A stretch of DNA of 34,323 nt from Clostridia bacterium (GTDB lineage Bacteria > Bacillota > Clostridia > Oscillospirales > SIG627): contig JAFSID010000044.1 in the NCBI GenBank assembly GCA_017439965.1, forward strand, positions 1 through 34,323, written 5' to 3'. Positions 5,452-30,024 of the stretch are shown in pieces; positions within the stretch are counted from its first letter, which is position 1, and every line of letters starts with the position of its first letter. The position numbers and the translations under genes are program-made. The notes beneath the pieces were generated by a model. The model was given only the letters and a program-made list of their open reading frames with translations. It made no database searches and was not told the origin of the DNA.

Positions 5452-6632
5452 TGAAAGCGAAAGCAGAGCGTGGCGAGAGAGTTGGAACGATTGTTCCTTA
5501 CGGTTACAAGCGCGATCCCGAACACAAAGGTCATCTCCTTGTCAACGAGGAACCCGCACCAATCGTCCGAATGATATTCTCGCTGTGTGCCAAAGGTACT
5601 GGACCGAGAAATATTGCAAATATCCTGCGTGACAAGAAAATACTGAAGCCTACCGCCTATCGTTATCAAACGGAAGGTGTATACGGAACACGCACGGATA
5701 CCGAAACGCCATACGGTTGGAACGATAGAACGGTTGCAGGTATCCTTGATAATGAAATCTATCTTGGTCATACTGTTAACTGTCGCACCACGGTGGTATC
5801 CTACAAGGACAAACGCAAGAAGGATCGTCCAGAAAGTGAATGGTATCGTGTTGAAAATACTCACGAAGCTATCATTGACAAAACAACTTGGGAGCTTGCC
5901 CAAGTAGTTCGTCAAGGCAAACGCAGACGGACAGCGATGGGTGGAATCGATAAGTATAGCGGTCTATTATACTGCGCGGATTGCAATTCAAAGCTGTACT
6001 TTATTCGAGGAACAACACTCAAAACAGATGCCTACGGATTTATTTGTAGCCGATACAGAAAGCACATGGGCGAGGAACAATGCACGCCTCACTCCATCAG
6101 GGCAAAGGTGCTTGATGAGATCATCCTTGAAGAAATCCGCAAGGTAACCTACTACGCACGCGCTCAAACCCGTGAGCTCGTCAGCTTTATTAATCAAAAA
6201 AGCTCTGCGGAAAACCGCAGAGAGTTAAATGCGAGGATGGTGGAGCTTGCGAGTCTTGAAAAGTGCAACAACGAGCTGCACGCTATGTTCAGGCGACTCT
6301 ATGAGGACAATGTTCTCGGCAAGGTCACCAATGAACAGTTCCGTATGCTCTCCGACGGTTACAACACCGAGCAAAGAGAAATCACCGAGCGGCTTCCAAT
6401 AGTAAAGCAAGAGATTGAAGATCTGAAAGTGGCGGCAACCAATGTCGAGAGATTTGTGGATATTGCAAACAAGTACACAGATTTAAGGGAGCTGACTCCC
6501 GAAGTGCTTCGCACATTCATAGAGCGAATTATTATCCACGAAAGAACGGCAAAGCACAGCAAAACCGCAACGCAGCAGATCGACATCTACTTCCGCTATA
6601 TCGGAAAACTTGCACCCGAACAAGTTGCCTAA
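5403..6632 (+). pseudogene. Large serine recombinase lacking its catalytic domain
   Basis: The readable part begins near YARDTSKKIRALVKAKAERG, a segment that in intact large serine recombinases directly follows the roughly 140-residue catalytic domain. The frame is blocked by a TGA at 5400-5402, and the resolvase domain with its nucleophilic Ser is absent. What remains (about 393 codons from GTG 5451) includes the recombinase domain (GTGPRNIANILR), the zinc ribbon (GLLYCADC, with partner cysteines about 20 and 35 residues on) and a C-terminal coiled-coil region. It may still be translated from 5451 but cannot cut DNA. A deletion around 5400-5412 fused it to the small gene upstream. Confidence 0.8.
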
Positions 6633-6647
6633 ACCAACAAAACGGAA

Positions 6648-6677
6648 TAGGACGGACAGCCGAAACTGTCCGTCCTA
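6648..6677 (+). terminator. Hairpin after the recombinase remnant
   Basis: A perfect 12-bp stem (6648-6659 with 6666-6677, TAGGACGGACAG on the left) with loop CCGAAA. No T-run follows, so it may be an inefficient terminator or part of the element end. Confidence 0.5.
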
Positions 6678-6695
6678 CAACCGAGTACCGCCTTA

Positions 6696-6752: not shown

Positions 6753-9383
6753 TTAATTTTTAATCGTTTTGCCCGTAGTACCGAAGGTAAGATGAACGTT
6801 TACGGGACAAGCGTTAAGAGACGCCTGACAGCCGACGGACGCCTTGAATTTGCCCTTGGGTACGGTAAGAGTGCCCTGATGCCAGATATTCTTTTCGTTG
6901 CCGTAGCGGTCGATGACCTTAGCGCTCTTGCCGTCCCACTCGATAAAGTCGGTTGACATAAGCTCGCACTCGAACATTACGGTCTCCTTTCCGACGGTGA
7001 CGGTGGGATTCTTAACGACGTTGTAAACCTGACGGCAAGCGGTGATGCTCGACGCATAAACGCCCTCAACGTCACCCGATACCATAAGCTCAATGCTGGT
7101 AAGTCTGTCCATATTATGACCCGAGCGTCCGATTGAATAGAAGCCCTGATTGTCCTCAAAGCCAAGCTCGAGTCTCTCGCCGTTGTCAGCCTCTAGAAGA
7201 ACGAAGTCACGCCAGCCCTCAAAGTCGGTATCAACGACGAAAAGTCCGTAGCCGTGCTCACTCTGTGATGCGCTGAGGGTCTTGATGCCGATAGCACCCT
7301 TCTTGCCGTTGCCCTTGACTCTTATCTTATACGCAAGATTATTGACGGTATTAAGCTCAGCACCGAAGGTAAACTTCTTTACCTGGTCTGCAACGGGCTT
7401 ATTTTCGTCAAGAGGAAGGAGAACGAGAGGCTCGTCACCGAGAGTGGACATACAGTTTTCAATGCGGATAAAGGGAGTCTGCTTCTTGAAGGGATTTTCA
7501 AACTCAACGGTATTACGCTTTTCGTCCTGAATATCGAAAAGTCTCTTGGTCTTGTAATTCTTCTCCTCAAATACGTACTTGTTGCCCTTCTTGACAACCG
7601 CAACCTCGTGTCCGCAGTTCTTTGCCATTTCAATGGTTTCGGGCTTGAAGTAGTCGGACTTGCGGAGGTCGGAGTAAACCTTATAGCGTGCAACATTTCT
7701 GCGGTAGCCTGCGTAACGCTCAAGCACAGCCCGAGAGGTGCCGTTGAAAACGTTGGAGTAGTTATAAAGGACGGCAAGCATACCGAGGTGGTCAATGGAA
7801 TCCCAGTGATGATAACGGGTATGCTGGTTTCCAGGGTACTTGTCGGTGGTCGGGAAGAAGTTGTACCAGCCGAGAGTTGCGGTGTGGTGATTGCGGGTAG
7901 CAATCGCCTGATGCTTATGATGAAGTCCGTTCCAGTATCTGTAAGCACGGAAGGGAGTATCCCAAGCGCCCATTCTCGCACGTGAAGCCCAGATTGACGG
8001 ATACATCGTCGAATACTCAATAATGGGATAGGTTTCGCAGTTCTTCATAATTTCGTGTACGAAGATTGCGGCATAGTACCAGCCCTCGTGCTTGGTGCAA
8101 TGACGTCCGATTCCGTCAAGTGCATCAAGATATATCATACCGAAGCCGCCCTTATTATAAGCCTCGGCGGTATTTCTGGCAATCTGCTTGAAGAGGTCGC
8201 TCGTAACTGCAGGAGCAAAGAGGTTGAAGCAGCCTCTTAAGTGATACATAGGCTCGCCCTTCTTGTGAGATACAGCCTTAGTACCTGCAAAGCCACGCTG
8301 AAGCACCTTAAAGCCGTCGGGAGCGTTGGTATAGTATATAATCTCCTCGCCTACGAGAATATAGGGAAGGTTTGAGGTAAAGAAGCCGTAATAATCCGAA
8401 AGCTCGGCGGTAGACTCAACAGACGGAACGAAGTCCGCATCTGCCGAAATATCCTCGGCAAGAGTGAAGGTCTCGTTGCGGTCGAGCTGACTCTGCCACT
8501 TGGGGTCGGAAAGAATTTCGTGACAGCCGGGATTGATATAATATGCATAGGTGTGAAGACCCGCCTTCATACCGTTTTCGGCAAGAGGCTCTGCAACGTG
8601 CTTTTTAAAGCCCTCGTGGTTTTCGTAATGAGCCTGCTTGAAGTCGCCCTGACGGTAGGTTGCACCGCCCTGATGGATATCGACCTGGTCAACGCCAATC
8701 TGCTTGAAGAACTCGATATTGTTCTTGATATAATCGGGAGCGGCGCTGTAAATAATCGTATAGTCACCGAAATTGTCCTTACAATCACGTCCCCAAGGAC
8801 CTGCGGTCTTGGAAACGATACCCTTTTCGGAGTCAATCTTCTCGCAGAGGGTCTTGAGAGACTCGCGGAGAATGATTTCGGGAGCGGTGGTAACGCCAAC
8901 CTTAGCACCCAAAACGCCTCCGAGGTGAGGATAAGCGCAAGCCTTGAAGTCTCCGCTTATTCCGCTGGGATAATTGACAGTACGGGTGTTGACGGTCATG
9001 GGCACCTCGGCAATGCGAAGAGCGTTGATATCCTCCTTGTCGCACTCAAACTTGAAGCCTGCAAAACGGATATAGAACGCCTCGGGCTTGAGAGCCTCAC
9101 CTACCACCTCACAGATGAAGTGGTCGTCAAACGCCTCAAGCTTAACATACGCCGAGCCAAGCTCGGTCTCAAAGCCTGCAATACCTCCATTAAAGGACAT
9201 ACTTTTTGCGGGAAATTCAACCTCGTCCTTGTCGTAGGCAGAAAAGAAGCTCTGCTTTTCAGCGGTTATCTCCTTGTCTGCAACAAGGTCGAACACCTTA
9301 ACGGTTGCATCCTTCTTGGAGATTTCGATTTTGAGACAGTTGGTTGACAGAATAAGAGCGGTCTTGTTATCCTTGATACTCAT
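6753..9383 (-). CDS. P1: putative cytoplasmic TIM-barrel glycoside hydrolase, divergent member
   Basis: An 876-residue protein, the last gene of the array. Layout follows the family: N-terminal beta-sandwich (about 1-190), barrel (about 190-560), C-terminal jelly-roll (about 665-876). Shared motifs are YRQGDF (243-248), GLHTYA, RGFAGTKAVSHKKG (363-376), MIYLDALDG (417-424; D420 and D423 are candidate catalytic or metal residues) and RARMGAWD (468-475). It is the odd member: position 459 is Thr (EYSTM) where all other copies have Asp, and the DGT..H motif is DGIGRH. There is no signal peptide. GGAGG precedes the start, 12 bases after the P2 stop, so it is co-transcribed with P2. The glycosidase role is inferred from fold-like motifs and neighbours. 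Confidence 0.65.
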   Translation of the reverse strand: MSIKDNKTALILSTNCLKIEISKKDATVKVFDLVADKEITAEKQSFFSAYDKDEVEFPAKSMSFNGGIAGFETELGSAYVKLEAFDDHFICEVVGEALKPEAFYIRFAGFKFECDKEDINALRIAEVPMTVNTRTVNYPSGISGDFKACAYPHLGGVLGAKVGVTTAPEIILRESLKTLCEKIDSEKGIVSKTAGPWGRDCKDNFGDYTIIYSAAPDYIKNNIEFFKQIGVDQVDIHQGGATYRQGDFKQAHYENHEGFKKHVAEPLAENGMKAGLHTYAYYINPGCHEILSDPKWQSQLDRNETFTLAEDISADADFVPSVESTAELSDYYGFFTSNLPYILVGEEIIYYTNAPDGFKVLQRGFAGTKAVSHKKGEPMYHLRGCFNLFAPAVTSDLFKQIARNTAEAYNKGGFGMIYLDALDGIGRHCTKHEGWYYAAIFVHEIMKNCETYPIIEYSTMYPSIWASRARMGAWDTPFRAYRYWNGLHHKHQAIATRNHHTATLGWYNFFPTTDKYPGNQHTRYHHWDSIDHLGMLAVLYNYSNVFNGTSRAVLERYAGYRRNVARYKVYSDLRKSDYFKPETIEMAKNCGHEVAVVKKGNKYVFEEKNYKTKRLFDIQDEKRNTVEFENPFKKQTPFIRIENCMSTLGDEPLVLLPLDENKPVADQVKKFTFGAELNTVNNLAYKIRVKGNGKKGAIGIKTLSASQSEHGYGLFVVDTDFEGWRDFVLLEADNGERLELGFEDNQGFYSIGRSGHNMDRLTSIELMVSGDVEGVYASSITACRQVYNVVKNPTVTVGKETVMFECELMSTDFIEWDGKSAKVIDRYGNEKNIWHQGTLTVPKGKFKASVGCQASLNACPVNVHLTFGTTGKTIKN

Positions 9384-9395
9384 AATAAGCCTCCG

Positions 9396-12011
9396 TTATT
9401 TTATTTCCTTACCCGTCGTACCCATCGTGAGATAGAGGTTGACGGGACAGTTGTTAAGTGATGACTGATAACCGACGGTCACACGGTACTTACCCTTGGG
9501 CACGGTAAGGCTACCCTGGAACCATATCGGCTTTTCGTTAGCGTAGCGGTCAATGACCTTGGCGGTCTTGCCGTCCCACTCGATAAAGTCGGTAGACATA
9601 AGCTCGCACTCGAACATTACGGTCTCTTTTCCGACGGTGACGGTGGGATTCTTGAGAACGTTATATACCTGACGGCAGGCGTTGACGCTTGACATACGCA
9701 CGCCCTCAACGTCTCCCGTTGCAAGAAGCTCAATTGAGCTGATGCGGTCCATATTGAGACCCGAGCGGTAGACGGGGTACATATGAAGTCCTTCCTCGAA
9801 AAGCTCGGGACGGTCGCCGTTGTCTGCCTCAAGAAGCACGAAGTCACGCCAGCCCTCAAAGTCGGTGTCTATAAGATAAAGTCCGTAGCCATTTTCACTG
9901 TTCGTTCCGCCCTTGAGTCGAAGCGCGACGGTACCCTTTTTGCCGTTGCCCTTGACTCTGACGGTCATGGCAAGATTGTTGATAAGATTTATTTCCGAGC
10001 CAAGCTCGTGTAAACGGAGCTGTTCGGTTACCTCCTGCTCCTCGTTCATGGGAAGAAGGAGCATCGGGTCACGTCCGAGGGTTGACATACAGTGCTCTAT
10101 TCTCACGAAGGGAGTCTGCTTTTTAAAGGGGTTTTCATAGGTGAGAGTGTTACGGCTCTCCTCGTTGATGCCGTAATATCTCTTGATATCGTAGTTCTTT
10201 TCAACGAGTGCGTATTTGCCGTGTCCCTTATCGGCAACCGCAAGCTCGTGCGGATTCTGCCTTGCCTTTTCAAGTATTTCCTCCGAGAAGTAACGGTCAC
10301 GGCGGAGCTTGTCGTAAAACTTGTAAATATCGAGATTACGCTTCCAGCCGGGAATCTTCAAATTGTAGTTGGAGTAAGCGTTGGAATAATTATAAAGGAT
10401 TGCAAGAGTACCCATAAACTCGATTGCATCGGTATGGAAATACTTGGTGTGCTGATTTCCCGGGTACTTATCCGTGATAGGATAGAGGGATACCCATCCA
10501 AGCGTTGAGTTGTAAAGGTGACGGGTTGCAGCCTTGTTATACTTATGGTGAATACGGCAGAAGTTCTTGAGTCCTCTGAAGGGAATATCCCAAGCGCCCA
10601 TTCTCGAACGGCTTGCCCATACTGACGGAGGCATATCCGCAAACTCAATAATTGGGTCGTCGTGGCAGTTCTTTATAACCTCGTGGGTAAACTTTGCAAT
10701 ATAGTAGGGGCGTTCCTCAATGCGACAGTGACGGCGCGTACCGTCTACCGCATCGAGATATATCATAGTGTAACCGCCTCTGTTGTAGTTCTCGGCGGTC
10801 TGACGCGCTATCTTTAAGAAAAGCTCGCTTCCGTGCTTGGGAGCAAAGAAATAGAAGCAGCCGTCAATGTGATAGATCACGGCGTCCTTCTTATGCTCTG
10901 CGGGAGTCGTACCGCAAGCACCTCGCTCGGTGACCGTAAAGCCGTTTGGCGCATTCTTATACTTTATAATCTCCTCGTCAATGAGAACGTAGGGCATATT
11001 GGTTGAGAAGAAGCCGTAATAATCCGAAAGCTCGGCGGTGGACTCAACCGTCGGCACGAAATCAGCCTCTGCCGAAATATTCTCGGAAAGGGTAAACTCC
11101 TCAAGGGTGGATAACTGCTTCTGCCACTTGGGGTCTGAAAGAAGCCCGTGACACTTGGGGTCAATATACTGACCGTAGGTATGGAAGCCCGTCTGTATTC
11201 CGTGCTTCGCAAGGCGGTCGGTAACCCTCGCCTTGAAATCCTCGTGTCCGTCGTACAGCATATATTCAAAATCGCCCTGACGGAAGGTGTTTATGTTATT
11301 CTGCACTATATCAAGGTGGTCGATTCCGAGATATTCAAGAGCGTCTATCTGGTCGTCGAGATACTCCTGAGAGGCAAACCAGGAGAGCATATAACTTCCC
11401 TGAACTCTCTCGTTTTCAAAAGCCCAAGGACCTGCGCTTTTCATAACGATTCCCTTTTCGGGGTCTATCTCCGAGCATATCTCCTGAAGCACTGCGCGAC
11501 GGCTCTTTTCGGAAATTACCGCATAGCCGTAGCGTGCACCCTTTGCACCCTCAAGGTGCTCGTAGGTTTTGGACAAAGTTCTCTTATCATATCCGTCGGG
11601 GAACAAAACGGGGTCAACGGAAACCGTCATTGCAACGCCCACCGCTCTCGGTCCGTCCTCGTCGTCGGGGTCGTATTCGTAGGAGGCATTACCCATATAA
11701 ATACAGTAAACACCCTCGGGAAGAGCGGTCAGCACCTCGAAGATAAAGAAATTATCTCTTACCGTAACGCCGATTTTAACCTCTCCCTTCTCGGTTTTGA
11801 GAAAGAACGTGTCATTCTCAAAATCAAGAGAGAGGATTTTAAATTCCTGCCAGCTTTCATCGGTCAGAGCAAAAAAGCTCTTCCTCTCACCCGTGATATC
11901 AACGCCGTCCGCCGTCACGACCGACAGAAGAGTCGCATCACTGCGGGAAAGCTCAAGCTTCACTGTTTTGTTTTCAAGTGTTATTGCTTTCTTCGTAACC
12001 TTAACAGCCAT
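9396..12011 (-). CDS. P2: putative cytoplasmic TIM-barrel glycoside hydrolase
   Basis: An 871-residue protein. The N-terminal domain and barrel are closest by eye to P3 and P4 (TLLSVVTADGVDITGE, 27-42). Barrel motifs are FRQGDF (243-248), MIYLDAVDGTRRH (416-428), IIEFADM (454-460, E456 and D459) and RSRMGAWD (468-475). The C-terminal half is a mosaic: GLHMYPVYRSGLNMDR, IWFQG and SSLNNCPVN match P6, whereas ISSIELLATGDVEGVRMSSV matches P4. There is no signal peptide. It has its own promoter (12073-12101) and a GGAGAAGG-like ribosome site, and reads on into P1. The substrate is unknown. Confidence 0.68.
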   Translation of the reverse strand: MAVKVTKKAITLENKTVKLELSRSDATLLSVVTADGVDITGERKSFFALTDESWQEFKILSLDFENDTFFLKTEKGEVKIGVTVRDNFFIFEVLTALPEGVYCIYMGNASYEYDPDDEDGPRAVGVAMTVSVDPVLFPDGYDKRTLSKTYEHLEGAKGARYGYAVISEKSRRAVLQEICSEIDPEKGIVMKSAGPWAFENERVQGSYMLSWFASQEYLDDQIDALEYLGIDHLDIVQNNINTFRQGDFEYMLYDGHEDFKARVTDRLAKHGIQTGFHTYGQYIDPKCHGLLSDPKWQKQLSTLEEFTLSENISAEADFVPTVESTAELSDYYGFFSTNMPYVLIDEEIIKYKNAPNGFTVTERGACGTTPAEHKKDAVIYHIDGCFYFFAPKHGSELFLKIARQTAENYNRGGYTMIYLDAVDGTRRHCRIEERPYYIAKFTHEVIKNCHDDPIIEFADMPPSVWASRSRMGAWDIPFRGLKNFCRIHHKYNKAATRHLYNSTLGWVSLYPITDKYPGNQHTKYFHTDAIEFMGTLAILYNYSNAYSNYNLKIPGWKRNLDIYKFYDKLRRDRYFSEEILEKARQNPHELAVADKGHGKYALVEKNYDIKRYYGINEESRNTLTYENPFKKQTPFVRIEHCMSTLGRDPMLLLPMNEEQEVTEQLRLHELGSEINLINNLAMTVRVKGNGKKGTVALRLKGGTNSENGYGLYLIDTDFEGWRDFVLLEADNGDRPELFEEGLHMYPVYRSGLNMDRISSIELLATGDVEGVRMSSVNACRQVYNVLKNPTVTVGKETVMFECELMSTDFIEWDGKTAKVIDRYANEKPIWFQGSLTVPKGKYRVTVGYQSSLNNCPVNLYLTMGTTGKEIK

Positions 12012-12072
12012 AAATCCTTCTCCATTTGTATCGTTTTACATCTTATTTTAAGGTATTTTTCACCTCACGGTT

Positions 12073-12101
12073 AGTCTACCATAAAACAAAGCCGAGGTCA
12101 A
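12073..12101 (-). promoter_or_regulatory. Promoter of P2-P1
   Basis: On the minus strand: TTGACC (12101-12096), a 17-bp spacer, then TAGACT (12078-12073) preceded by TGG (extended -10). Just downstream is CCGTGAGGTG (12061-12070). The promoter is almost identical to that in front of P4. Confidence 0.7.
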
Positions 12102-12168
12102 CAAATTATAAAAATTTTGCTTTTTTCAGCAGATTACACAATTTAAACGGCACTCCTTTGTCAAAAAA

Positions 12169-12194
12169 AGAAAAACCGCCGAAGCGGTTTTTCT
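12169..12194 (-). terminator. Terminator of P3 with UUCG loop
   Basis: On the minus strand an 11-bp stem ending in ACCGC closes a TTCG tetraloop (12180-12183), and the right arm runs into TTTTTCTTTTTTT. A near copy stands behind P5. Confidence 0.88.
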
Positions 12195-12215
12195 GAAAAC
12201 ACAAAAAATACTGTT

Positions 12216-14828
12216 TTATTTTATGATTTTTCCGTCAGTTCCCATCGTCACGATTGCGTTAACGGGACAGCCGTTAAGAGACACAGCCGAAAGGCTTGCC
12301 TTGTATTTACCCTTGGGTACGGTGAGAGTGCCCGAGAAGTAAATCTCCTTTTCGTTAGCGTAGCGGTCGATGACCAGAGCACGCTTGCCGTCCCACTCGA
12401 TAAAGTCGGTGGACTGAAGCTCACACTCAAACATAACCGACTCACCGCCTACCGTGAGGGTAGGATTCTTGATGACGTTATATATCTGAGGGCACGCCTT
12501 TATATCGGACATACGGACTCCCTCAACGTCACCCGTTGCAAGCACCTCGATAAAGCCGAAGCGGAACATATTGGGAAGGAAGTGATGTATCTGATACATA
12601 TGAACGCCCTGCTCAAAAAGCTCGACACGGTCACCGTTGTCAACCTCACAAAGCACGAAGTCACGCCAGCCCTCAAAATCGGTATCAACGGTCAAAAGCC
12701 CGTATCCGCTCTCGTTACCCTTACCCGACTTAAGACGAATTCCGACGGCACCCTTACGGCCGTTACCCTTGATACGTACGGTAACGGTAAGTCTTTTGGT
12801 AATGTCAAAATCTGCGCCGAGATAATGAGAGCGGAGCTGCTCGGAAACGTCACGGTTCTCGTCCATAGGCAATAGGATAAGCGGGTCGTGTCCGAGGGTG
12901 GAGAGACAATGCTCTATTCTTACGAAGGGAGTCTGCTTCTTGAAGGGGTTTTCAAAGGACTGCTCCCGACGGTCCTCCTCCTCAATACCGTAAAGTCTCT
13001 TTCTGTCGTAATTCTTTTCAACAAAGGCATACTTGCCCTTGCCTTTATCAACTACTGCAAGCTCGTGGGGATTCTCTCTTGCCTTTTCAATAATTTCCTC
13101 GGAGAAATATTTTTCACGGCGAAGTCTTTCATAAAAATGGTAACGGTCAATATTACGTCTCCAGCCTCTGACCTTAAAGTTAAAAAGACCGTAGGCGATG
13201 GAATAATTGTAAAGAATGGAGAGTGCGCCGAGATGGTCTATCGCGTCACGGTGGAAATAGTGAATGAAGTGGTTACCTGGATAGTAATCTGCGGTGGGAT
13301 AGAGAGCCATCCATCCGAGAGTCGCATTGTAAAGGTGGCGGAGTGCCCCCTTGTTTGAAGCGTGATGGATATTGATAAATCTCTTGTAGGCTCTGAGCGG
13401 CATATCCCAAGCGCCCATTCTCGAACGGCTTGCCCAGATGGATGCGGGCATATCCGCAAACTCTAAAATAGGCTCGTCGTGACAGTGCTTTATTATCTCG
13501 TGAGTGAATTTTGCAATATAATAGGGACGCTCCTCAAGTCTGCAATGTTGCTTCGTGCCGTCTACCGCATCGAGATATATCATCGTATATCCGCCCTTGT
13601 TGTAGTTCTCGGCAGTCTTGCGGGCAACCTCAAGGAAAAGCTCACTACCGTGTCTTGGCACTAAATAATAGAAATATCCGTCGAGAAGATAAACCGTTGA
13701 GCCCTTCTTATGCTCGGCGGGAGTCGTACCGCAGGCACCGCGCTCGGCAACCTTAAAGCCGTCGGGAGCATTCTTATACATAATTATTTCCCCGTCAATC
13801 AAAACGTAAGGAATATTCTTTGTAAAGAGGCCGTAGTAATCCGAAAGGTCGGCGGTGGATTCAACGGTCGGGATAAAGTCGGACTCGGCTGAAACGTCCT
13901 GCAAAAGCTCATACTCTCCGCGAACGGCAAGCTGCTTCTGCCATTTGGGGTCCGAAAGAAGCCCGTGGCACAGGGGGTCGATATACTGTCCGTAGGTATG
14001 AAGGCTCGCCTGTATTCCGCGCTCTGTAAGGCGGTCGGTGACCCTCGCCTTGAAATCCTCGTGTCCGTCGTAATGGACGTATTCAAAGTCACCCTGACGG
14101 AAGGACTTTTTGTTATTCTGGGTTATGTCAAGGTGGTCTACCTTAAGGTAGGCGATATCGTCAAGCGTTCTGTCAAGATACTCCTGCGAGCAATCGGTGG
14201 TAACTATATAGCTTCCCTGAACTCGCTCGTTTTCATCCGACCAGGGACCTGCCGTTTTCATAACGATGCCCTTTTCGGAGTCAATCTCCGAGCAAAGCTT
14301 ACGAAGCTCCGCACGTCTGCTCTTTTCGGGAATTACCGCATAGCCGTAGCGTGCTCCCTTTGCTCCCTCAAGATGCTCAAAGGTTCTGGAAATGGTTTTC
14401 TTATCGTAGCCGTCGGGAAAATACTCGGGGTCAACGGTAACCGTCATTGCAACGCCTACCGCTCTCGGTCCGTTCATATCCTCAATATCGTATTCGTAGG
14501 AGGCGTTACCCATATAGAGACAGTAAGCGCCCTTGGGAAGAGAGGTCAGCACCTCGAAAATAAAGTAGGTGTCTCTTACGGTAACGGCAATTTTAACCTC
14601 ACCAAGCTCGGTCTTGAGAATAAGCGTGTCACCCTCCGAATCAAGCCCCTCGTTTTTAAACTCCTGCCAGCTCTCGTCGGTCAGGGCAAAAAAGCTTTTC
14701 TTCTCGCCCGTGATATCAACGCCGTCCGCCGTCACAACCGACAAAAGACTCGCATCCTTGCGCGAAAGCTCAAGCGTTACCGTTTCGTTTTTCAGTAATA
14801 TAGCTTTATTCGTAGCAGTAATACCCAT
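12216..14828 (-). CDS. P3: putative cytoplasmic TIM-barrel glycoside hydrolase
   Basis: An 870-residue protein, visibly the close relative of P2 and P4. Its numbering is collinear with P2: FRQGDF (243-248), MIYLDAVDGTKQH (416-428), FADM (457-460) and RSRMGAWD (468-475). Differences include SLHTYG in the barrel and QDVSAESDFIP where others have EDISADADF. The C-terminal SLSAVSLNGCPVN type is shared with P4 and P5 rather than with P2. There is no signal peptide or membrane segment. It has its own promoter (14877-14905) and terminator (12169-12194), so it can be a single-gene unit. The function is inferred from the family layout. Confidence 0.68.
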   Translation of the reverse strand: MGITATNKAILLKNETVTLELSRKDASLLSVVTADGVDITGEKKSFFALTDESWQEFKNEGLDSEGDTLILKTELGEVKIAVTVRDTYFIFEVLTSLPKGAYCLYMGNASYEYDIEDMNGPRAVGVAMTVTVDPEYFPDGYDKKTISRTFEHLEGAKGARYGYAVIPEKSRRAELRKLCSEIDSEKGIVMKTAGPWSDENERVQGSYIVTTDCSQEYLDRTLDDIAYLKVDHLDITQNNKKSFRQGDFEYVHYDGHEDFKARVTDRLTERGIQASLHTYGQYIDPLCHGLLSDPKWQKQLAVRGEYELLQDVSAESDFIPTVESTADLSDYYGLFTKNIPYVLIDGEIIMYKNAPDGFKVAERGACGTTPAEHKKGSTVYLLDGYFYYLVPRHGSELFLEVARKTAENYNKGGYTMIYLDAVDGTKQHCRLEERPYYIAKFTHEIIKHCHDEPILEFADMPASIWASRSRMGAWDMPLRAYKRFINIHHASNKGALRHLYNATLGWMALYPTADYYPGNHFIHYFHRDAIDHLGALSILYNYSIAYGLFNFKVRGWRRNIDRYHFYERLRREKYFSEEIIEKARENPHELAVVDKGKGKYAFVEKNYDRKRLYGIEEEDRREQSFENPFKKQTPFVRIEHCLSTLGHDPLILLPMDENRDVSEQLRSHYLGADFDITKRLTVTVRIKGNGRKGAVGIRLKSGKGNESGYGLLTVDTDFEGWRDFVLCEVDNGDRVELFEQGVHMYQIHHFLPNMFRFGFIEVLATGDVEGVRMSDIKACPQIYNVIKNPTLTVGGESVMFECELQSTDFIEWDGKRALVIDRYANEKEIYFSGTLTVPKGKYKASLSAVSLNGCPVNAIVTMGTDGKIIK

Positions 14829-14876
14829 AGTGTGTTCCTCGTTTTTGTGATATTAGGCTCTTTGCACCTCACGGTC

Positions 14877-14905
14877 ATTCTAACACACAAAATTTCAAAA
14901 AGCAA
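14877..14905 (-). promoter_or_regulatory. Promoter of P3
   Basis: On the minus strand: TTGCTT (14905-14900), 17 bases, TAGAAT (14882-14877). Downstream lies CCGTGAGGTG (14865-14874), the same ten bases found at the P2 promoter. The -35 box is weaker than those of P2 and P4. Confidence 0.55.
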
Positions 14906-14962
14906 TCAGTTTAAGGCGGTGAGTCACTAATGTACAAAAAGAAGTCTCTATTGTACAAAAAC

Positions 14963-17575: not shown

Positions 17576-17628
17576 AGTCTTTTCCTCATTCATATCATAA
17601 TTTATCATAATTTAAAGTGTTTAAGATA

Positions 17629-17657
17629 AGTCTATCATAAAACAATGCCAAGGTCAA
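17629..17657 (-). promoter_or_regulatory. Promoter of P4
   Basis: On the minus strand: TTGACC (17657-17652), 17 bases, TAGACT (17634-17629), preceded by TGA. Box sequences and spacer match the P2 promoter nearly base for base, but the CCGTGAGGTG downstream element is absent. Confidence 0.7.
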
Positions 17658-17724
17658 CAAATTATTATTTTTTTGTTTTTTTCGGCAGATTACACATTTT
17701 AAAACGCGTTTTTTGTGAAAGAAA

Positions 17725-17746
17725 GAAAACCGCCGAAGCGGTTTTC
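17725..17746 (-). terminator. Terminator of P5 with UUCG loop
   Basis: On the minus strand a 9-bp stem ending in ACCGC closes a TTCG loop (17734-17737) and is followed by a T-rich stretch (CTTTCTTTC). The core is the same as in the terminator behind P3. Confidence 0.8.
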
Positions 17747-17760
17747 CTTGATTCACAGCA

Positions 17761-20382
17761 TTATTTTACCTCTTTTCCCGTTGTTCCGACGGTCAATACT
17801 GCGTTTATCGGACAGCCGTTGAGAGAGACTGCCGAAAGGCTTGACTTGTATTTTCCGTGTGGCACGGTAAGGCTACCCGAGAAGTAAATTTTATTTTCGT
17901 TTGCGTAGCGGTCGATAACCTTAGCGCTCTTGCCGTCCCACTCGATAAGGTCGGTGGATTTCAGCTCACACTCAAAGGTAACGCTCTCGTCACCGACGGT
18001 GACGGTGGGATTCTTAAGAACGTCGTAAACCTGACGGCAGGCTGTAACACCCGTCATATAAACCTCCCCGACGTCTCCCGAGGTCATAAGCTCAACCGAG
18101 GTTACTCCCGCAAGATTAAAGAAATGACGGTGAAGCTGATATGCGTGACAGCCCTTTTCAAACCCAAGCTCAACGCGTGAGCCGTTGTCGGTCTCAACGA
18201 GAGTGAAGTCCCTCCAGCCCTCAAAATCGGTGTCGATAATATAAAGACCGTAGCCGCTGCCCGTACTCATTCCGGCGTGAAGCTTGATGCCGACGTGTCC
18301 CTTTTTACCGTTGCCCTTGACACGCACCTTGATTGCCATTTTATCTCTTAAGTCTAACGCTCCTGCAAAATCAAGCCTCTTTACCTGAGAGGACACGGGA
18401 ATCGTCTCGTTTAAGGGCAAAAGGAGAAGAGAGTCGTCACCGAGGCTTGACATACCTGCCTCGATTCTCACAAACGGAGTCTGCTTTTTGAAGGGGTTTT
18501 CCAAAAGGGTCTCACGGCGGTTTTCCCCGTCAATGCCGTAAAGTCTGTTTTTCGAATACGCCCTTTCGACGATTTTATATCTGCCGTCCTTTTCAACTAC
18601 TGCAAGCTCACTATTGCACTCTCTTGCACGCTCAAGAGTCTTATCGGAGAAATATTTCTCACGGCGGAGACGGATATAAAGATTATAGTGATTTATATTG
18701 CGATAGCATCCGTAATAGCGGTCGATATCGTAGCCTCCGTTGAAAACCGTGGAATAGCCGTAAAGGAGAGAGAGCATACCCATATGGTCGATATCGTCGG
18801 TGTGCTGATAACGTGTATGCTGATTTGCGGGATACGCCTCGTCAATCGGGAAATAGTTATACCAGCCGAGCGTTGAATGATAGCAACGGCGCGCGTTGTT
18901 GAGGTTATCCTTATGGTGAAGCTCATTAAAGATTTTATAGTTGCGGTAGGGCATATCCCAAGCACCCATTCGGGCTCGGCAAGCCCATACCGACGCAGGC
19001 ATATCCGACAGCTCAAGAAGAGGCTCACGCTCGCAGTTTTTGATAATCTCGTGTACGAAGCGCGCAATATAGTAGGGGCGCTCCTCCTTTCTGACGTGCT
19101 TCTGAGTGCCGTCGATAGCGTCGAGATATATCATTGAATAACCGCCCTTGTTAAAGGCGTTTGCGGTGTTTCTTGCAATCATTAAAAACAGCTCGGAATT
19201 ATGAAGAGGCACGAGCTTTCCGAAGCATCCGAGTGCATGACGAATCTTTTCGCCTTTTTTATGCGCAACAGCCTTTGTACCGCAGAAGCCTCTCTGACAG
19301 GTGGCAAAGCCGTGGTCGTGGTTGGTGTATTTTACAAACTCGTTGCCGATGAGAGCAAAGGGCAGATTCTTTTCAAAGAAGCCGTATACACGGGAAACGC
19401 CTGCGGTTGACTCAACCGTCGGTATAAAATCCGCATCCGCCGAAATGTCCTCGGCAAGAGTAAACTCCTCGCCATACTCAAGCATCTCCTGATATTTCGG
19501 CTGAGAGAGGATATCGTGACATTCGTTATTTATGTACTGAGCGTAGGTGTGAAGTCCCACCTCGATGCCCTTTGAATTGAGGTAGTCGGTGACCTGAGCC
19601 TTGAAGTCGGCGTCGTCTGCGTAGCGGACGTACTTGAAGTTACCCTGATGGAAGGTGTTAAGCTGATTTTGTTGAAAAAAGACCTGGTCAACGCCTATAC
19701 GACGGTATATCTCGCTCGTTTTCTCGATGGTTGAGCGGCGGCAATCGTTTGCCTTGGCGTAGCTTCCCCGAGCAAGAGCGTTTGAATCAGACCAAGGACC
19801 TGCGCTCTTTAAAACGATGCCCCTTTCGGAATCTATCTCCGAGCATATTTCCCGAAGGGTCTCAACTCTTATATTCTCGGGGAGCACCGCAAGTGCATAG
19901 CGTCCGCCCTTAGCGCCCTCTCCGAGATGCTCGTAAAGCTTGGCGTAGGTTTCACGCCTTATACCGTCGGGAAAATAACGTGGGTCAACCGAAACGGTCA
20001 TAGCAACGCCCACACCTCTCGGCGCAGTATCATCGTCAAGGTCGTAATCGTACCTGATATAACCGAAATTCATACAGTACGCCTTTTCGGGCAATGGAGT
20101 CTTACACTCAAGGATGAAATATCCGTCACGGGTCAAGACCTCCACCTCTACCCTGCCCACCTCGGTGGTAAGGATAAGAGTATCTCCCACAGCCTTGAGC
20201 GAAAGGTTTTCAAAAACGTTCCATTCGCTGTCGGTGAGATTTATAAAAAGCGTGCTCTCACGCATTACCTCAACGCCGTTTGCAGTCCTTACCGAGATAA
20301 CGCTTGCATCCTTTTTGGATAGAATTATTTTCACCTGCTTGTTTTCAAGCGTTACGGTGCTTTTATCGTCCCTTACAGCCAT
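17761..20382 (-). CDS. P5: putative cytoplasmic TIM-barrel glycoside hydrolase with altered RQGDF motif
   Basis: An 873-residue protein. The barrel has MIYLDAIDGTQKH (417-429), LLELSDM (455-461), ACRARMGAWD and a long HH..N stretch as in the family. It is the only copy in which the otherwise invariant RQGDF reads HQGNF (245-249), losing both charged residues, so substrate contact may differ. The region before the RG..GT loop is also changed (GVSRVYGFFEKN). The C-terminus is of the SLSAVSLNGCPIN type. GGAGGAG precedes the ATG closely. No clear promoter is seen in 20383-20519, although an A+T-rich TATTATATTAAT lies there. There is no signal peptide. Confidence 0.67.
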   Translation of the reverse strand: MAVRDDKSTVTLENKQVKIILSKKDASVISVRTANGVEVMRESTLFINLTDSEWNVFENLSLKAVGDTLILTTEVGRVEVEVLTRDGYFILECKTPLPEKAYCMNFGYIRYDYDLDDDTAPRGVGVAMTVSVDPRYFPDGIRRETYAKLYEHLGEGAKGGRYALAVLPENIRVETLREICSEIDSERGIVLKSAGPWSDSNALARGSYAKANDCRRSTIEKTSEIYRRIGVDQVFFQQNQLNTFHQGNFKYVRYADDADFKAQVTDYLNSKGIEVGLHTYAQYINNECHDILSQPKYQEMLEYGEEFTLAEDISADADFIPTVESTAGVSRVYGFFEKNLPFALIGNEFVKYTNHDHGFATCQRGFCGTKAVAHKKGEKIRHALGCFGKLVPLHNSELFLMIARNTANAFNKGGYSMIYLDAIDGTQKHVRKEERPYYIARFVHEIIKNCEREPLLELSDMPASVWACRARMGAWDMPYRNYKIFNELHHKDNLNNARRCYHSTLGWYNYFPIDEAYPANQHTRYQHTDDIDHMGMLSLLYGYSTVFNGGYDIDRYYGCYRNINHYNLYIRLRREKYFSDKTLERARECNSELAVVEKDGRYKIVERAYSKNRLYGIDGENRRETLLENPFKKQTPFVRIEAGMSSLGDDSLLLLPLNETIPVSSQVKRLDFAGALDLRDKMAIKVRVKGNGKKGHVGIKLHAGMSTGSGYGLYIIDTDFEGWRDFTLVETDNGSRVELGFEKGCHAYQLHRHFFNLAGVTSVELMTSGDVGEVYMTGVTACRQVYDVLKNPTVTVGDESVTFECELKSTDLIEWDGKSAKVIDRYANENKIYFSGSLTVPHGKYKSSLSAVSLNGCPINAVLTVGTTGKEVK

Positions 20383-20475
20383 ATGCTCCTCCGATTCGGT
20401 CGTATTCCATTAATATAATACACATATTTGCAGGCTTTTTATATAATTCTTTATTCTAAAAATATCACAAATCTA

Positions 20476-20509
20476 TTAAAGAGGCTTGTCTTACGATAAG
20501 CCTCTTTAA
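20476..20509 (-). terminator. Probable terminator of P6
   Basis: A perfect 12-bp stem (20476-20487 with 20498-20509, TTAAAGAGGCTT on the left) is extended by three further pairs to a TTAC loop. The following U-run is short, so efficiency is uncertain. It lies 11 bases past the P6 stop. Confidence 0.65.
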
Positions 20510-20519
20510 AACAAAATGG

Positions 20520-23141
20520 TTATTTAATATCCTTTCCCGTCGTTCCAACGGTAAGATAAACGTTGACGGGACAATTATTGAGAGAGGACTGGAAGCCAAC
20601 CTTTGCCTGATACTTGCCCTTGGGAACGGTGACGGTGCCCTGGAACCATATCTGCTTTTCGTTGAAGTAACGGTCAAGCACTACGGCACGCTCGCCGTCC
20701 CACTCGATAAAGTCGGTGGACATAAGCTCGCACTCGAACATTACGGTCTCGTTGCCAATCGTGACGGTGGGGTTCTTAACCACGTTATAAACCTGCTGGC
20801 AAGCGGTGAGAGAGGAAACGTAAACGTCCTCAACGTCACCGTCGGTAAGAAGCTCAACCGAGGACACGCGGTCCATATTAAGTCCCGAGCGGTAGACGGG
20901 ATACATATGGAGTCCCTTTTCAAAGGGAAGGTCGGGACGGTCGCCGTTGTCTGCCTCAAGGAGAATGAACTCACGCCAGCCGTCGAAATTCGTGTCGATG
21001 AGATAGAGTCCGTAGCCGTGCTCACTCTGTGAGCCTGCCTTAAGACGAAACGCTACGACACCCTGACGCTTGTTGCCCTTGACACGCACCTTCATTGCAA
21101 GATTCTGAGTGAGGTTAAATTCTGCGCCGAGGTGATGAAGTCTCTTCTGCTCGGAAACGGGAGCATTCTCGTTCAAGGGAAGAAGAATCATAGGATTCTT
21201 GCCGAGAGTGGACATACAGTTTTCAATACGGATAAAGGGGGTCTGACGCTTGAAGGGGTTGGTGAATTTCTCGGTATTGCGCTTTTCGTCCGCTACGTCG
21301 TAAAGTCTCTTTATCTCGTAATTCTTTTCAACGAACACGTGCTTGCCGTTTCTTTCAACCACTGCAAGCTCGTGGGGATTTGCTCTTGCCTTTTCAAGCG
21401 TTTCCTCGCTGAAGTAATGAGCCTTGCGGAGATCGTCGTATTTCTTGTAACGGGAGATGTTACGGCGGTAGCCCTCAACGACAAGATTACAGCCGTTATA
21501 AACGGTGGAATGATTGTACATTATCGCAAGAGCGCCGAGGTGGTCAACGGAATCCCAGTGGTGATACTTTGAGTGCTGGTTGCCGGGATACTTATCGGTT
21601 GCGGGGAAGAAATTGTACCAGCCCATCGTGGTATTATAGAAGTGACGGTGATGCTCAAGGTTTGCGCTGTGGTGGATCATATTGAACTTCTTGAAGTTAC
21701 GGTAGGGAGTATCCCACGCGCCCATTCTTGCACGGGCAGCCCAAACGGTTGCAGGCATATCCGACAGCTCAAGAAGAGGCTCGCGCTCACATCTCTTGAG
21801 GATTTCGTGAACGAAGAGCGCGATATAGTAGGGACGCTCGTCGCCCGAAACGTGCTTGTTGGTACCGTCGATAGCGTCGAGATATATCATACCGAAGCCA
21901 CCCTTATTGAAGGTGTCGGCGGTATTCCAGGCAATCTGCTTGAAGAGGTCGGTATTGTGAAGCGGTACGAAAAGATTGAAGTAACCGCAAAGATGGTATA
22001 TCTTCTCGCCCTTCTTATGAGATACGGCGGTCGTACCGCTGAAGCCTCTCTCACACTTAGCAAAGCCGTGAGGGTCGTTTACAAACTTGATAATCTCGTT
22101 GCCGATGCGGACGTAGGGCATATTTTTCGTAAAGAAGCCGTAATAGTCCGAAAGCTCGGCGGTGGATTCCTCGGTGGGAATAAACGCGGTATCTGGCCCG
22201 ATATCCTCGGCAAGCGTGAACACCTCGTTGGTCTCAAGCATATCCTGATTTTTCGGGTCGGAAAGAATACCGTGACAGTTGGGGTGGATATACTGAGCGT
22301 AGGTATGGAGCGCGGTTTCAACGCCTATGGAATTAAAGCGGTCGGAAACGCATTTTTTGAATTCGTGGATATCCTTATACGCCTTAACCTCAAAGTCGCC
22401 CTGACGGTAAGCGTAAAAATCGTTCTGATGTATATCGAGCTGGTCGATTCCGAGAAATTCCGACTCCTCCATAAGCTTGTCAAGTGCTTCGGGACGAACG
22501 TCGGAAACTATTCTGTAATTTCCGTTAGCGGCAGGATTTTCGTTTGCCCAAGGACCTGCGGTTTTCAAAACGATACCTTTTTGGGGGTCTATCTCAGAGC
22601 AAATAGCCTTGAGGGTATCCTGAAGCACGGGCTCGGGCACTACTGCAAGCGCATACTTAGCCCCCTTTGCGCCCTCTCCGAGATGCTCGTATACCTTGGC
22701 AACGGTTTTCTTATAGCATCCGCTGGGGAAATACGCAGGGTCGGTGGCAATAGTCATTGCGACGCCGACACCTCGGTAGGAGGTGCGGTCCTCAAGGTCG
22801 TAATCGTAATTTATATTGGCAAAGGCGAGACAGTAAGCATTCTTCGGGAGCGCGTTCTTTACCTCAAGAGTAAAGTAAGCGTCAAAGGTCTTGACGGCAA
22901 TCTTCACCTTGCCAAGCTCGGTTTCAAGAATAAGCGTTGATCCGTCAAGAGTGAGAGCCTTGTTTTCGTAAGCATTGTGCTCCTTGTCCATAAGATAGGC
23001 AAAGAGTGACTTTTCACCTGCGACACTTGTGCCGTCGGTGGTCTTTACCGAAAGGACGGCGGCATCCTTCTTGGAAAGCTCTATTCTGATATATTCGTTT
23101 TCGAGAACTATGCTGTTTTTAAGCTCTTTTACAGTATTCAT
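20520..23141 (-). CDS. P6: putative cytoplasmic TIM-barrel glycoside hydrolase
   Basis: An 873-residue protein. Motifs: YRQGDF (about 245-250), LHTYAQYIHPNCH, a variant GPDTAFIPTEESTAEL loop, RGFSGTTAVSHKKG, MIYLDAIDGTNKH (about 417-429), LELSDM and RARMGAWD. Among the P proteins its N-terminal part is nearest P5 (NYDYDLED, EHLGEGAKG), while its C-terminal part is nearest P1 and P2 (ETVMFECELMSTDFIEWDG, SSLNNCPVN). There is no signal peptide. GGAGGG sits four bases before the ATG. The gene starts 11 bases after the P7 stop, so P7 and P6 form a two-gene transcript ending at 20476. Confidence 0.68.
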   Translation of the reverse strand: MNTVKELKNSIVLENEYIRIELSKKDAAVLSVKTTDGTSVAGEKSLFAYLMDKEHNAYENKALTLDGSTLILETELGKVKIAVKTFDAYFTLEVKNALPKNAYCLAFANINYDYDLEDRTSYRGVGVAMTIATDPAYFPSGCYKKTVAKVYEHLGEGAKGAKYALAVVPEPVLQDTLKAICSEIDPQKGIVLKTAGPWANENPAANGNYRIVSDVRPEALDKLMEESEFLGIDQLDIHQNDFYAYRQGDFEVKAYKDIHEFKKCVSDRFNSIGVETALHTYAQYIHPNCHGILSDPKNQDMLETNEVFTLAEDIGPDTAFIPTEESTAELSDYYGFFTKNMPYVRIGNEIIKFVNDPHGFAKCERGFSGTTAVSHKKGEKIYHLCGYFNLFVPLHNTDLFKQIAWNTADTFNKGGFGMIYLDAIDGTNKHVSGDERPYYIALFVHEILKRCEREPLLELSDMPATVWAARARMGAWDTPYRNFKKFNMIHHSANLEHHRHFYNTTMGWYNFFPATDKYPGNQHSKYHHWDSVDHLGALAIMYNHSTVYNGCNLVVEGYRRNISRYKKYDDLRKAHYFSEETLEKARANPHELAVVERNGKHVFVEKNYEIKRLYDVADEKRNTEKFTNPFKRQTPFIRIENCMSTLGKNPMILLPLNENAPVSEQKRLHHLGAEFNLTQNLAMKVRVKGNKRQGVVAFRLKAGSQSEHGYGLYLIDTNFDGWREFILLEADNGDRPDLPFEKGLHMYPVYRSGLNMDRVSSVELLTDGDVEDVYVSSLTACQQVYNVVKNPTVTIGNETVMFECELMSTDFIEWDGERAVVLDRYFNEKQIWFQGTVTVPKGKYQAKVGFQSSLNNCPVNVYLTVGTTGKDIK

Positions 23142-23152
23142 ATAACCCTCCG

Positions 23153-25777
23153 TTATTTAATTTCTTTTCCTGTAAAGCCAAAAGTCAGATGTATATTTAC
23201 GGGGCATCCGTTGAGGGATACGCCGTAGCCTGCGCTTGCCTTGAAGCGTCCCTTGGGAGCGGTGATACCTCCCGTGAAATAAACGGTCTTTTCGTTGCCG
23301 TAGCGGTCGATAACCTTGGCGGTCTTGCCGTCCCACTCGATGAAATCGGAGGATTTAAGCTCGCACTCAACCATAAGGGTTTCGTCTCCTACGGTGACGG
23401 TGGGATTCTTAACTACGTTATATACCTGACGGCAAGCCGTAACGCTTGACATCTGCACGCCCTCGACGTCTCCGTCAACCTCAACTCCGCAGGAGGACAT
23501 ACGCTCGCACTTAAGTCCTACGCGGAACACGGGATAATCGTGAGAATCCTTTTCAAAGACGAGGTCGGGACGGTCTCCGTTATCAGCCTCAAGGAGCACG
23601 AAGTCACGCCAGCCCTCAAAGTCGGTATCAATGGTATAAAGCCCGTAGCCCTTTGAGGAAACGCTTCCTGCACGAAGCCTTATGCCGATAACGCCCTTTT
23701 TGCCGTTACCCTTGACACGCACCTTCATTGCAAGCTTCTCTCTCATATCTATCTCACCGCCGAAGTCGTGTACCTTAAGCTGGCTTGTGAGAGGCGCGTT
23801 TTCGTCGAGAGGAAGGATTACGAGAGGCTCGTCACCGAGGGTGGAAAGACCTGCCTCGATTCTTACGAAGGGAGTCTGACGCTTGAAGGGATTTGTGTAT
23901 TCCGCAGTATTTCTCGCGCTGTCTCCGATATCGTAAAGTCTCTTTATCTGATAATTCTTTTCATAGAAAACGAACTTGCCCTTGGTCTTTTCTCGGATTG
24001 CCATTTCGCAGTCGCACGCTCTTGCCCTTTCAAGAGTCTCCTCGCTGAAATAGTGGCTCTTACGGAGTCTTGAATACATATTGTAAAGCTCCATATTGCG
24101 ACGGCTTCCCGCAAAGCGTTTCATATCGGGAGTATTGGGAACGGTGGAATAGCGATACATTACCGCAAGGCTTCCCATATGGTCGATAGAGTCCCAGTGG
24201 TGATACTTGGTGTGCTGATTACCGGGGTACTCGTCGGTCATGGGATAATAGTTATACCAGCCGAGCGTACAGTTATAAAAGCGACGGACGAAGTCCTGAT
24301 TTCTCACGTGGTGACGGCGGTTGAACTCCTTATAGTTACGGAAGGGAGTATCCCACGCGCCCATTCTCGCACGGCTTGCCCATACCGACGCAGGCATATC
24401 GGATAGCTCCATCATAGGCTCTCGCTCGCATCTCTTGAGGATTTCGTGAACGAAGAGCGCAATATAGTAGGCTGTCTCACCCTTTGCACAGTGACGGTTC
24501 GTGCCGTCGATAGCGTCGATGTAAATCATATCAAAGCCACCGCGGTTATACGCCTCGGCGGTATTTTTTGCCACCTCGATAAAGAGGTCACTGCCAAGTC
24601 GCGGACAGAAGCGGTCGAAGAGACCCGTCATACGCTTGACGGTTTCCCCCTTCTTATGTGCCACAGCCTTGGTACCGCAAGCGCCTCTTACACAATTTTT
24701 GAAGCCCTTTGAATTATAATCAAACCTGATTATCTCCTCCCCTATCATAATATAGGGAAGCTCGCGACGGAAGAAGCCGTATTCGTGAGGAAGCTCGGCA
24801 AGGGACTCGTTAACCGTGATAAAATCGGCGGTCTCATCTATATTCTCGGAAAGCGTGAAGGTCTCGCAGTATTCAAGGTCTGCCTGACGCTTAGGGTCGG
24901 AAAGCATTTCGTGGCAGGTTGGCTGAACGTAAAAGGCGTAGGTATGAAGCGCCGTCCCGATGCCGTTCTCCTTGAGAAAGTCGGAAACCTTCTCCTTGAA
25001 CTCCTCGTGAGATTCGTATCTCATAGGCTTGAAGTCGCCCTGACGGTGATTGTATATTCCCTGATGGAAGTCGAGCTGGTCAACGCCTCTTGCCTTATAG
25101 ACGGGAAGCATTCTTTCAAGGTACTCACGGGAGGATTCGTACACGATTATATAGTCGCCCTGAGCCGCCTGATTTTCCCATGACCAAGGACCTGAATGAC
25201 GGAGTAAAATACCCTTCTGTGAGTCAATCTTAAGACAAAGCTCCTGAAGTGCCTCACGCAGACAGGTGTTGGGGACTATAACGAGACCGAGTCTTGCGCC
25301 CTTACCGCCTCCGAGATGCTCACGCACACGTCCCGTCGTCTTTTTGGCAAAGCCGTCGGGAAAATGCTTAGGGTCAACGTTGACGGTCATTGCAACCGCG
25401 CCCGCTCTGAAGGTATCCTCGGCTGAGGTATCGTACTCATACTCGGCGTTGGCAATATAGAGCGAGTGTGCCCCCTCGGGTACTGAGGTCTGTACCTCAA
25501 AGATAAAGTGACGCTCAAAAGCCTCAGCGGAAATTTTTACGCTACCCTTTTCGGTATCAAGCGTAAATACTCCGTCCTCATAGTCAAGGGACAGATTTTT
25601 GAATATATTCCCCTCCTCATCCGTTAAATGAAAGAAGGGCACGCTCTCTCCCATTATGCTCTCGCCGTTTACCGTTTCGGTAATAGATAAAACGTCGGCA
25701 GTCTTGGTTGAAAGCTCAATTCTTACGTAGTCGTTTTCAAGAGTGACTGCACTCTTTCCATTCTTGATAAAAGCCAT
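23153..25777 (-). CDS. P7: putative cytoplasmic TIM-barrel glycoside hydrolase, first gene of the array
   Basis: An 874-residue protein from ATG 25777. The frame is open to 25807, but the extra ten codons contain the AGGAGG ribosome site, so 25777 is the start. Motifs: HRQGDF, LHTYAFYVQPTCH, RGACGTKAVAHKKG, MIYIDAIDGTNRH (about 418-430), MELSDM and SRARMGAWD. The loop usually reading VESTAELS is VNESLAELP. Near the C-terminus, ECELKSSDFIEWDGK and GYGVSLNGCPVN make it distinct from the others. There is no signal peptide. It has its own promoter (25821-25850) and shares a transcript with P6. The function is inferred as for the other copies. Confidence 0.68.
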   Translation of the reverse strand: MAFIKNGKSAVTLENDYVRIELSTKTADVLSITETVNGESIMGESVPFFHLTDEEGNIFKNLSLDYEDGVFTLDTEKGSVKISAEAFERHFIFEVQTSVPEGAHSLYIANAEYEYDTSAEDTFRAGAVAMTVNVDPKHFPDGFAKKTTGRVREHLGGGKGARLGLVIVPNTCLREALQELCLKIDSQKGILLRHSGPWSWENQAAQGDYIIVYESSREYLERMLPVYKARGVDQLDFHQGIYNHRQGDFKPMRYESHEEFKEKVSDFLKENGIGTALHTYAFYVQPTCHEMLSDPKRQADLEYCETFTLSENIDETADFITVNESLAELPHEYGFFRRELPYIMIGEEIIRFDYNSKGFKNCVRGACGTKAVAHKKGETVKRMTGLFDRFCPRLGSDLFIEVAKNTAEAYNRGGFDMIYIDAIDGTNRHCAKGETAYYIALFVHEILKRCEREPMMELSDMPASVWASRARMGAWDTPFRNYKEFNRRHHVRNQDFVRRFYNCTLGWYNYYPMTDEYPGNQHTKYHHWDSIDHMGSLAVMYRYSTVPNTPDMKRFAGSRRNMELYNMYSRLRKSHYFSEETLERARACDCEMAIREKTKGKFVFYEKNYQIKRLYDIGDSARNTAEYTNPFKRQTPFVRIEAGLSTLGDEPLVILPLDENAPLTSQLKVHDFGGEIDMREKLAMKVRVKGNGKKGVIGIRLRAGSVSSKGYGLYTIDTDFEGWRDFVLLEADNGDRPDLVFEKDSHDYPVFRVGLKCERMSSCGVEVDGDVEGVQMSSVTACRQVYNVVKNPTVTVGDETLMVECELKSSDFIEWDGKTAKVIDRYGNEKTVYFTGGITAPKGRFKASAGYGVSLNGCPVNIHLTFGFTGKEIK

Positions 25778-25820
25778 ATTACGCCTCCTGCAAGGTTGTG
25801 GTTTCACTTATTACAAGGCT

Positions 25821-29954: not shown

Positions 29955-29982
29955 TTGAATTGACTTGAATTTATGCTATAAT
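29955..29982 (+). promoter_or_regulatory. Promoter of the GH39-galK-galT operon
   Basis: TTGAAT (29955-29960), 16 bases, TATAAT (29977-29982) preceded by TGC, an extended -10. The start codon is 42 bases downstream. Confidence 0.78.
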
Positions 29983-30024
29983 ATAGCTGTAATATACGTA
30001 AGAATTTTTCTTGAGAGGTATTTT

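Follow-up and report, generated by a model that had tools for sequence, protein, structure and literature searches.

A tandem array of seven genes from a genus-amplified family of probable alpha-retaining glycoside hydrolases

The stretch of DNA analysed here, the window, comprises 34,323 nucleotides and contains seven similar genes that stand head to tail. This raises the question of what their products do, and why so many diverged copies are kept. The explanation that we favour, with moderate confidence, is that the seven genes are one cluster of a glycoside hydrolase family that has been amplified in the genus, is most likely alpha-retaining and is used in two cellular compartments.

The open reading frame list of the window gives seven intact frames on the minus strand, running from 25807 to 6753 and encoding, in array order, 876, 871, 870, 881, 873, 873 and 884 aa. 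Counted from the likeliest ATG codons the genes have 870–876 codons. They are copy 1 (6753..9383, a cytoplasmic form), copy 2 (9396..12011), copy 3 (12216..14828), copy 4 (14963..17608, 881 aa as a frame and about 870 from an internal ATG), copy 5 (17761..20382), copy 6 (20520..23141) and copy 7 (23153..25807, 884 aa from a GTG and 874 aa from the ATG at 25777, where this last gene then starts). An earlier note on this DNA had described seven collinear, intact paralogues, and this is confirmed by pairwise identities of 50–73% for the proteins over their whole length and 58–75% for the nucleotides. A search of the genome with one copy recovered the other six with E = 0. The motifs M(I)YxDAxDG and RxRMGAWD (R-S/A-R-M-G-A-W-D) are present in all seven copies, as had been claimed, whereas the third motif named with them, E-x-x-D-M, is found in six, copy 1 having E-Y-S-T-M instead.

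Reading the array as a single operon was rejected, since terminator- and promoter-like sites inside it divide it into about five units. An intergenic block on the minus strand with a promoter-like TTGACC-17-TAGACT element (12073..12147) is 87% identical to a second minus-strand block at 17629..17703, so that gene and promoter were probably duplicated together. A terminator-like stem-loop (12194–12169) sits just upstream of the first block, and a strong terminator-like hairpin of 14 pairs (6647..6678, minus strand) follows the last array gene. An Rfam scan of the window gave no match. Beyond this hairpin lies a serine-recombinase-like frame (5451–6632) with Recombinase, zinc-ribbon and DUF4368 domains, in which the resolvase catalytic domain is unmatched. 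D12 and N4/N6 methyltransferases are found upstream of it, and the GC content is 37–41%; the region may be a degenerate mobile element that borders the array.

No Pfam family matched six of the copies at E<=10, and the seventh had no match to any glycosidase model. NCBIfam gave nothing relevant for the array copies, single sequences had no match among PDB sequences, and our searches of open-access papers found no description of the family. Relative to these four sources the family is unassigned, as far as sequence comparison can tell, and the earlier statement that it has no named family was borne out by the Pfam, NCBIfam and PDB-sequence searches. Some CAZy families have neither Pfam models nor structures, and the family could be one of the existing CAZy families outside these sets, with a profile in dbCAN. 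We regard this as unlikely, though the least unlikely of the alternatives discussed here: NCBIfam and PDB did not match single sequences, profiles gave only a weak hint of GH36, and no paper on the family was found.

Copy 6 was modelled with AlphaFold using an alignment of 71 sequences, with a pLDDT of 95.4 for the full model and 94.2 for the barrel alone. The model shows the strand and helix alternation of a (beta/alpha)8 barrel, in which a beta insert separates strand 3 from strand 4, and supports the earlier assignment to a TIM-barrel family. Each protein would consist of a beta-rich N-terminal domain, the barrel with its conserved insert, and a beta-rich C-terminal part. The best PDB matches of the full model in Foldseek were GH101, GH36, GH31 and GH129 enzymes (prob 1.00, best E about 1e-10), and those of the barrel alone GH13, GH36 and GH31 enzymes (best E about 1e-6, TM 0.4–0.49). 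GH101, GH36, GH31, GH129 and GH13 are all alpha-retaining. The nearest folds of the barrel are thus those of the alpha-retaining (beta/alpha)8 superfamily (clan GH-D, GH101/GH129, GH13). TM-scores to known barrels are low overall (0.3–0.5) and several alpha-retaining families match about equally well, so the fold does not fix the mechanism. The structure prediction and fold search proposed in the earlier note have given a predicted barrel with remote matches, all to alpha-retaining glycosidases.

The beta insert covers residues about 321–387 of the copy 6 product (roughly 21981–22181) and has the motif ELI...GF..C.RGA.GT.A..H..G..V, of which E349, R365 and H375 are invariant in 71 sequences. 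It gave a weak HMMER match to the phage tail-tip proteins 8rk3 and 8vjh (E 0.13–0.25), hinting at a shared small beta subdomain.

Residues invariant in all 36 aligned copies of the genome include D422, D425, E458, D477, H279, Y281, E325, E349, R365, H375, H490 and W508, in copy 6 numbering and with positions taken from the sequence and the secondary structure of the model. The acids D420, D423 and E456, singled out earlier as candidate pocket residues, are D422, D425 and E458 in this copy and are located where barrel strands 4 and 5 end. The end of strand 4 is the nucleophile position in the alpha-retaining families matched, and the end of strand 5 is the acid/base position in GH101 and GH13. 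D422 (codon 21876..21878, minus strand), at the end of strand 4 in M-I-Y-L-D-A-I-D-G, is invariant in 71 of 71 sequences. E458 (codon 21768..21770, minus strand), at the end of strand 5, is a glutamate in 69 and an aspartate in two of the 71, and D477 (codon 21711..21713, minus strand), in the R-A-R-M-G-A-W-D that follows strand 5, is again invariant in all 71. We propose D422 as the nucleophile; the acid/base would be E458, by analogy with GH101/GH129, or else D477, which would correspond to the clan GH-D type. The enzymes would then most likely cleave alpha-linked sugars with retention of configuration.

GH36 alpha-galactosidases and alpha-galactosaminidases (clan GH-D) resemble the family in barrel fold and in the aspartate at the end of strand beta4, and gave the only sequence-level signal. 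This weak signal covers barrel strands 1–2 (GD..., G..aGL...), with E 0.011 to PDB 8x1b/9ayu and a hhalign E of 1e-4; the profile alignment spans only beta1–beta2, there is no full-length sequence relation, and the conserved insert between strands 3 and 4 falls outside the match. The GH36 and Melibiase (PF02065) models of Pfam and NCBIfam did not match any of the seven copies. The GH36 motifs K-x-D-x-N (beta4) and S-D-x-x-D (beta6) are present in our GH36 comparison set and absent from the family, which has M-I-Y-L-D-A-x-D-G and R-x-R-M-G-A-W-D at these sites; over beta5–beta6, E...RxRMGAWD stands against CSGGGRFD...SDxxD in GH36.

GH101 endo-alpha-N-acetylgalactosaminidases were the top fold matches of the full model, and as in GH101/GH129 beta domains flank the barrel. 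In these two families an Asp nucleophile on beta4 and a Glu acid/base on beta5 are spaced by some 30–45 residues; in the model, D422 closes strand 4 and E458 closes strand 5, and as nearly invariant residues they are candidates for these roles. A sequence relation to the two families was not detected: the GH101 model PF12905 found nothing in the genome, and hhalign was not significant against GH101-like proteins, a weak test with a set of two remote proteins from the phylum. GH31 is likewise an alpha-retaining barrel with a fold match, but PF01055 did not match the copies, the hhalign hit (E 0.006) is limited to 66 columns, and the family lacks the W-x-GD acid/base motif. GH13, the alpha-amylase/phosphorylase superfamily, has D on beta4 and E on beta5; it matches in the barrel only (SusG, sucrose phosphorylase), and no sequence relation to it was found.

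A search of the genome with one copy revealed about 37 family members, an approximate number because the assembly is fragmented (2.44 Mb, 106 contigs, 90.6% complete). Together, the coding regions of the copies analysed, whether intact or partial, account for 5.4% of the assembly bases. Further tandem groups include five copies on contig C16 and three each on C77, C46, C94 and C62. Two classes can be told apart. Seventeen short copies (860–900 aa, one broken by a TAG) have no hydrophobic N-terminus where this was checked, and 18 long copies, mostly of about 1,480 aa (one of 1,223 aa), carry a hydrophobic N-terminus and SLH domains before the same core. Two copies fall outside these classes, one with Big_3 and dockerin domains and another truncated where its contig ends. 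Signal peptides were judged from hydrophobicity and not with SignalP; over 12 residues the Kyte-Doolittle values were 2.5–3.5 in the SLH copies versus at most 1.5 in the short ones. None of the seven array copies has a signal-peptide-like N-terminus. In the maximum-likelihood tree there are at least three switches between the classes, and two short copies on C62 fall within the long clade.

Two single copies may be mentioned here. The Big_3 and dockerin copy (L027:2813-7162, contig C63 of the genome) is one of only two dockerin proteins found in the genome, both on C63. The copy with the in-frame TAG (L017:413-3088) lies beside two intact copies and is either a broken copy or an assembly error.

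The earlier note had described the family as intracellular and its seven copies as all lacking signal peptides. For the seven copies of the window the second statement stands, but the 18 long copies, all located outside the window, have a signal-like N-terminus and SLH repeats. Half of the copies in the genome thus bear SLH domains, most homologues from other phyla also begin with a signal-like segment, and the description as intracellular is not supported for the family. Judged from these domains, the SLH-bearing copies are apparently anchored at the surface, and the cytoplasmic set is one of two predicted compartments. SLH-anchored surface glycosidases of Bacillota have the same signal-like N-terminus and SLH repeats for wall anchoring; what differs here is that one family supplies 18 such proteins together with about 17 cytoplasmic paralogues in one genome. 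A scan for SLH domains found about 30 proteins in the genome, and a family share of 18 among them would fit a coat protein. We nevertheless consider it very unlikely that several or the majority of the copies serve to bind carbohydrates or to build an S-layer-like coat: none of the aligned copies of the genome departs from the putative catalytic acids, about 17 copies are cytoplasmic, and copies in other phyla lie in glycan-degradation neighbourhoods.

Two DUF4838-like genes precede the array on its strand, the first at 25953..27884 (PF16126, E 1.8e-8) and the second, 63% identical to it, at 27900..29822. They are followed on the plus strand, divergent from the array, by a GH39-like glycosidase (29965..31338; PF01229, E 9e-17), a galactokinase-like GHMP kinase (31340..32596; PF10509 and PF00288) and a UDP-glucose--hexose-1-phosphate uridylyltransferase (32598..34079; GalT, PRK05270 type). 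DUF4838 genes occur near family genes in five loci, copies on C62 have a DUF4838 neighbour, and GH39 also adjoins copies in loci L039 and L080. The DUF4838-like pair (25953–29822) has at least four more near-full-length relatives in the genome, two of them adjacent on C88. A search with the DUF4838 neighbour against PDB gave no match, and the literature searched for DUF4838 with "glycoside hydrolase" contained one passing mention. Copies elsewhere in the genome have GH29, GH28-like, L-rhamnose isomerase (RhaA), aldose epimerase and ABC permease genes as neighbours. In a locus from the Bacteroidales, two family copies are accompanied by SusD and a TonB plug protein, and sulfatase and GHL6/GH42M genes lie near copies elsewhere. 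An M24/creatinase-like neighbour is common to relatives in L071, L079 and L102 (Clostridiaceae, Bacteroidales and Hydrogenedentota MAGs), and URO-D-like genes recur in L071, L099, L101 and L102.

The neighbouring enzymes for fucose, rhamnose, galactose and polygalacturonate suggest pectic or hemicellulosic heteroglycans of plant cell walls as substrates, with neighbours that vary between loci; host mucin may be an alternative source. At the cell surface, the secreted, SLH-anchored copies would attack complex heteroglycans, probably those of plant cell walls, and the cytoplasmic copies, including the seven of the array, would complete the breakdown of oligosaccharides after import, with GH39, DUF4838-type proteins and Leloir enzymes as partners. 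Alternatively, the cytoplasmic copies could be phosphorylases or transglycosylases on an alpha-retaining barrel, which would save the bond energy of imported oligosaccharides. The intracellular location of the array copies beside sugar-1-phosphate metabolism (GalK/GalT) is consistent with this, and the Foldseek matches to the barrel alone include alpha-retaining phosphorylases that act on sucrose and glucosylglycerol. We find it improbable, as the secreted SLH copies have the same predicted catalytic residues and phosphorolysis would be of little use outside the cell, and GH36, GH31 and GH101 hydrolases match equally well or better.

All six genomes available for the genus contain the family, both as short and as long frames and in 5 to about 39 candidate copies, numbers that are lower bounds in the relatives because not all candidates were scored. 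Besides this genome, seven of a sample of 291 genomes of the class have matches: three with one good full-length match each, one with a partial match, and three with matches only to a remote sister family. The latter can be aligned with the family over the full length (hhalign E 1.7e-56) and has retained the aspartate of D422; used as a bridge to PDB, its proteins gave no match. A scan of GTDB species genomes revealed long, near-full-length relatives in herbivore-gut Clostridia as well as in Planctomycetota, Verrucomicrobiota, Lentisphaerota, Kiritimatiellota, Hydrogenedentota, Omnitrophota, Armatimonadota and Bacteroidota MAGs, mostly with hydrophobic N-termini.

Orthologues of the array genes, in the same order and with 90–95% protein identity, are found on two contigs of RGIG7401, a MAG from water-buffalo caecum. 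Copies 1 and 2 correspond to L037:2667-5288 and L037:36-2648 (both 95%), and copies 5, 6 and 7 have orthologues in L036 (90%, 95% and 95%, the last cut by the contig end). The exception is in mid-array, where the nearest counterpart of copy 3 is only 78% identical. The dN/dS values are 0.08–0.15 for orthologues, and 0.19–0.32 with high dS for paralogues. Conserved order, closely similar orthologues and low dN/dS show that the array is old: it predates this species and that of RGIG7401, and most copies have a lineage of their own. Copies 2, 3 and 4 (9396/12216/14963), which form a tandem subclade, are the youngest in the array, and copy turnover continues. The selection on the copies that had been deduced earlier is seen as purifying selection.

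The copies could also be kept for gene dosage of one activity, their divergence being drift. In favour of this, the active-site motifs are nearly constant between copies, and copies 2–4 form a recent subclade with duplicated promoter blocks and turnover of copies. Against this, most copies are only 50–58% identical, five have their own 90–95% orthologue in the same order in another species, orthologue dN/dS is low, and variation within the barrel, compared across every copy of the genome, is greatest in the beta8 and beta7 loops, as would be expected if specificity differs while the chemistry stays. We therefore judge dosage to be rather unlikely, and recent amplification for dose only is weakened by the old orthologues. 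The earlier choice between dose and several activities is narrowed without being decided, since old, diverged orthologues in conserved order argue for distinct roles over dose alone. In the preferred explanation, an amplified glycoside hydrolase family, the paralogues would keep one chemistry and the loops at the barrel mouth would set which linkage or branch is accepted. A bolder version, which we put forward tentatively, is that this is a new glycoside hydrolase family with some 37 copies in a single gut genus, forming an enzymatic cell surface, where paralogues of this one enzyme would be the majority of SLH-anchored proteins, with a matching cytoplasmic set; every paralogue would be adapted to its own linkage in a complex glycan.

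Many of the genes with which Clostridia of herbivore guts break down plant polysaccharides are unnamed in databases. Here, annotation with Pfam and NCBIfam misses what seems to be the main foraging machinery, one family that accounts for 5% of the assembly and for the majority of the SLH proteins detected. Should its members prove active, a glycosidase family present in many phyla would be gained, and the set of about 37 paralogues, which share a conserved active site and are divided between two compartments, would provide a test bed for how glycosidase specificity evolves after duplication.
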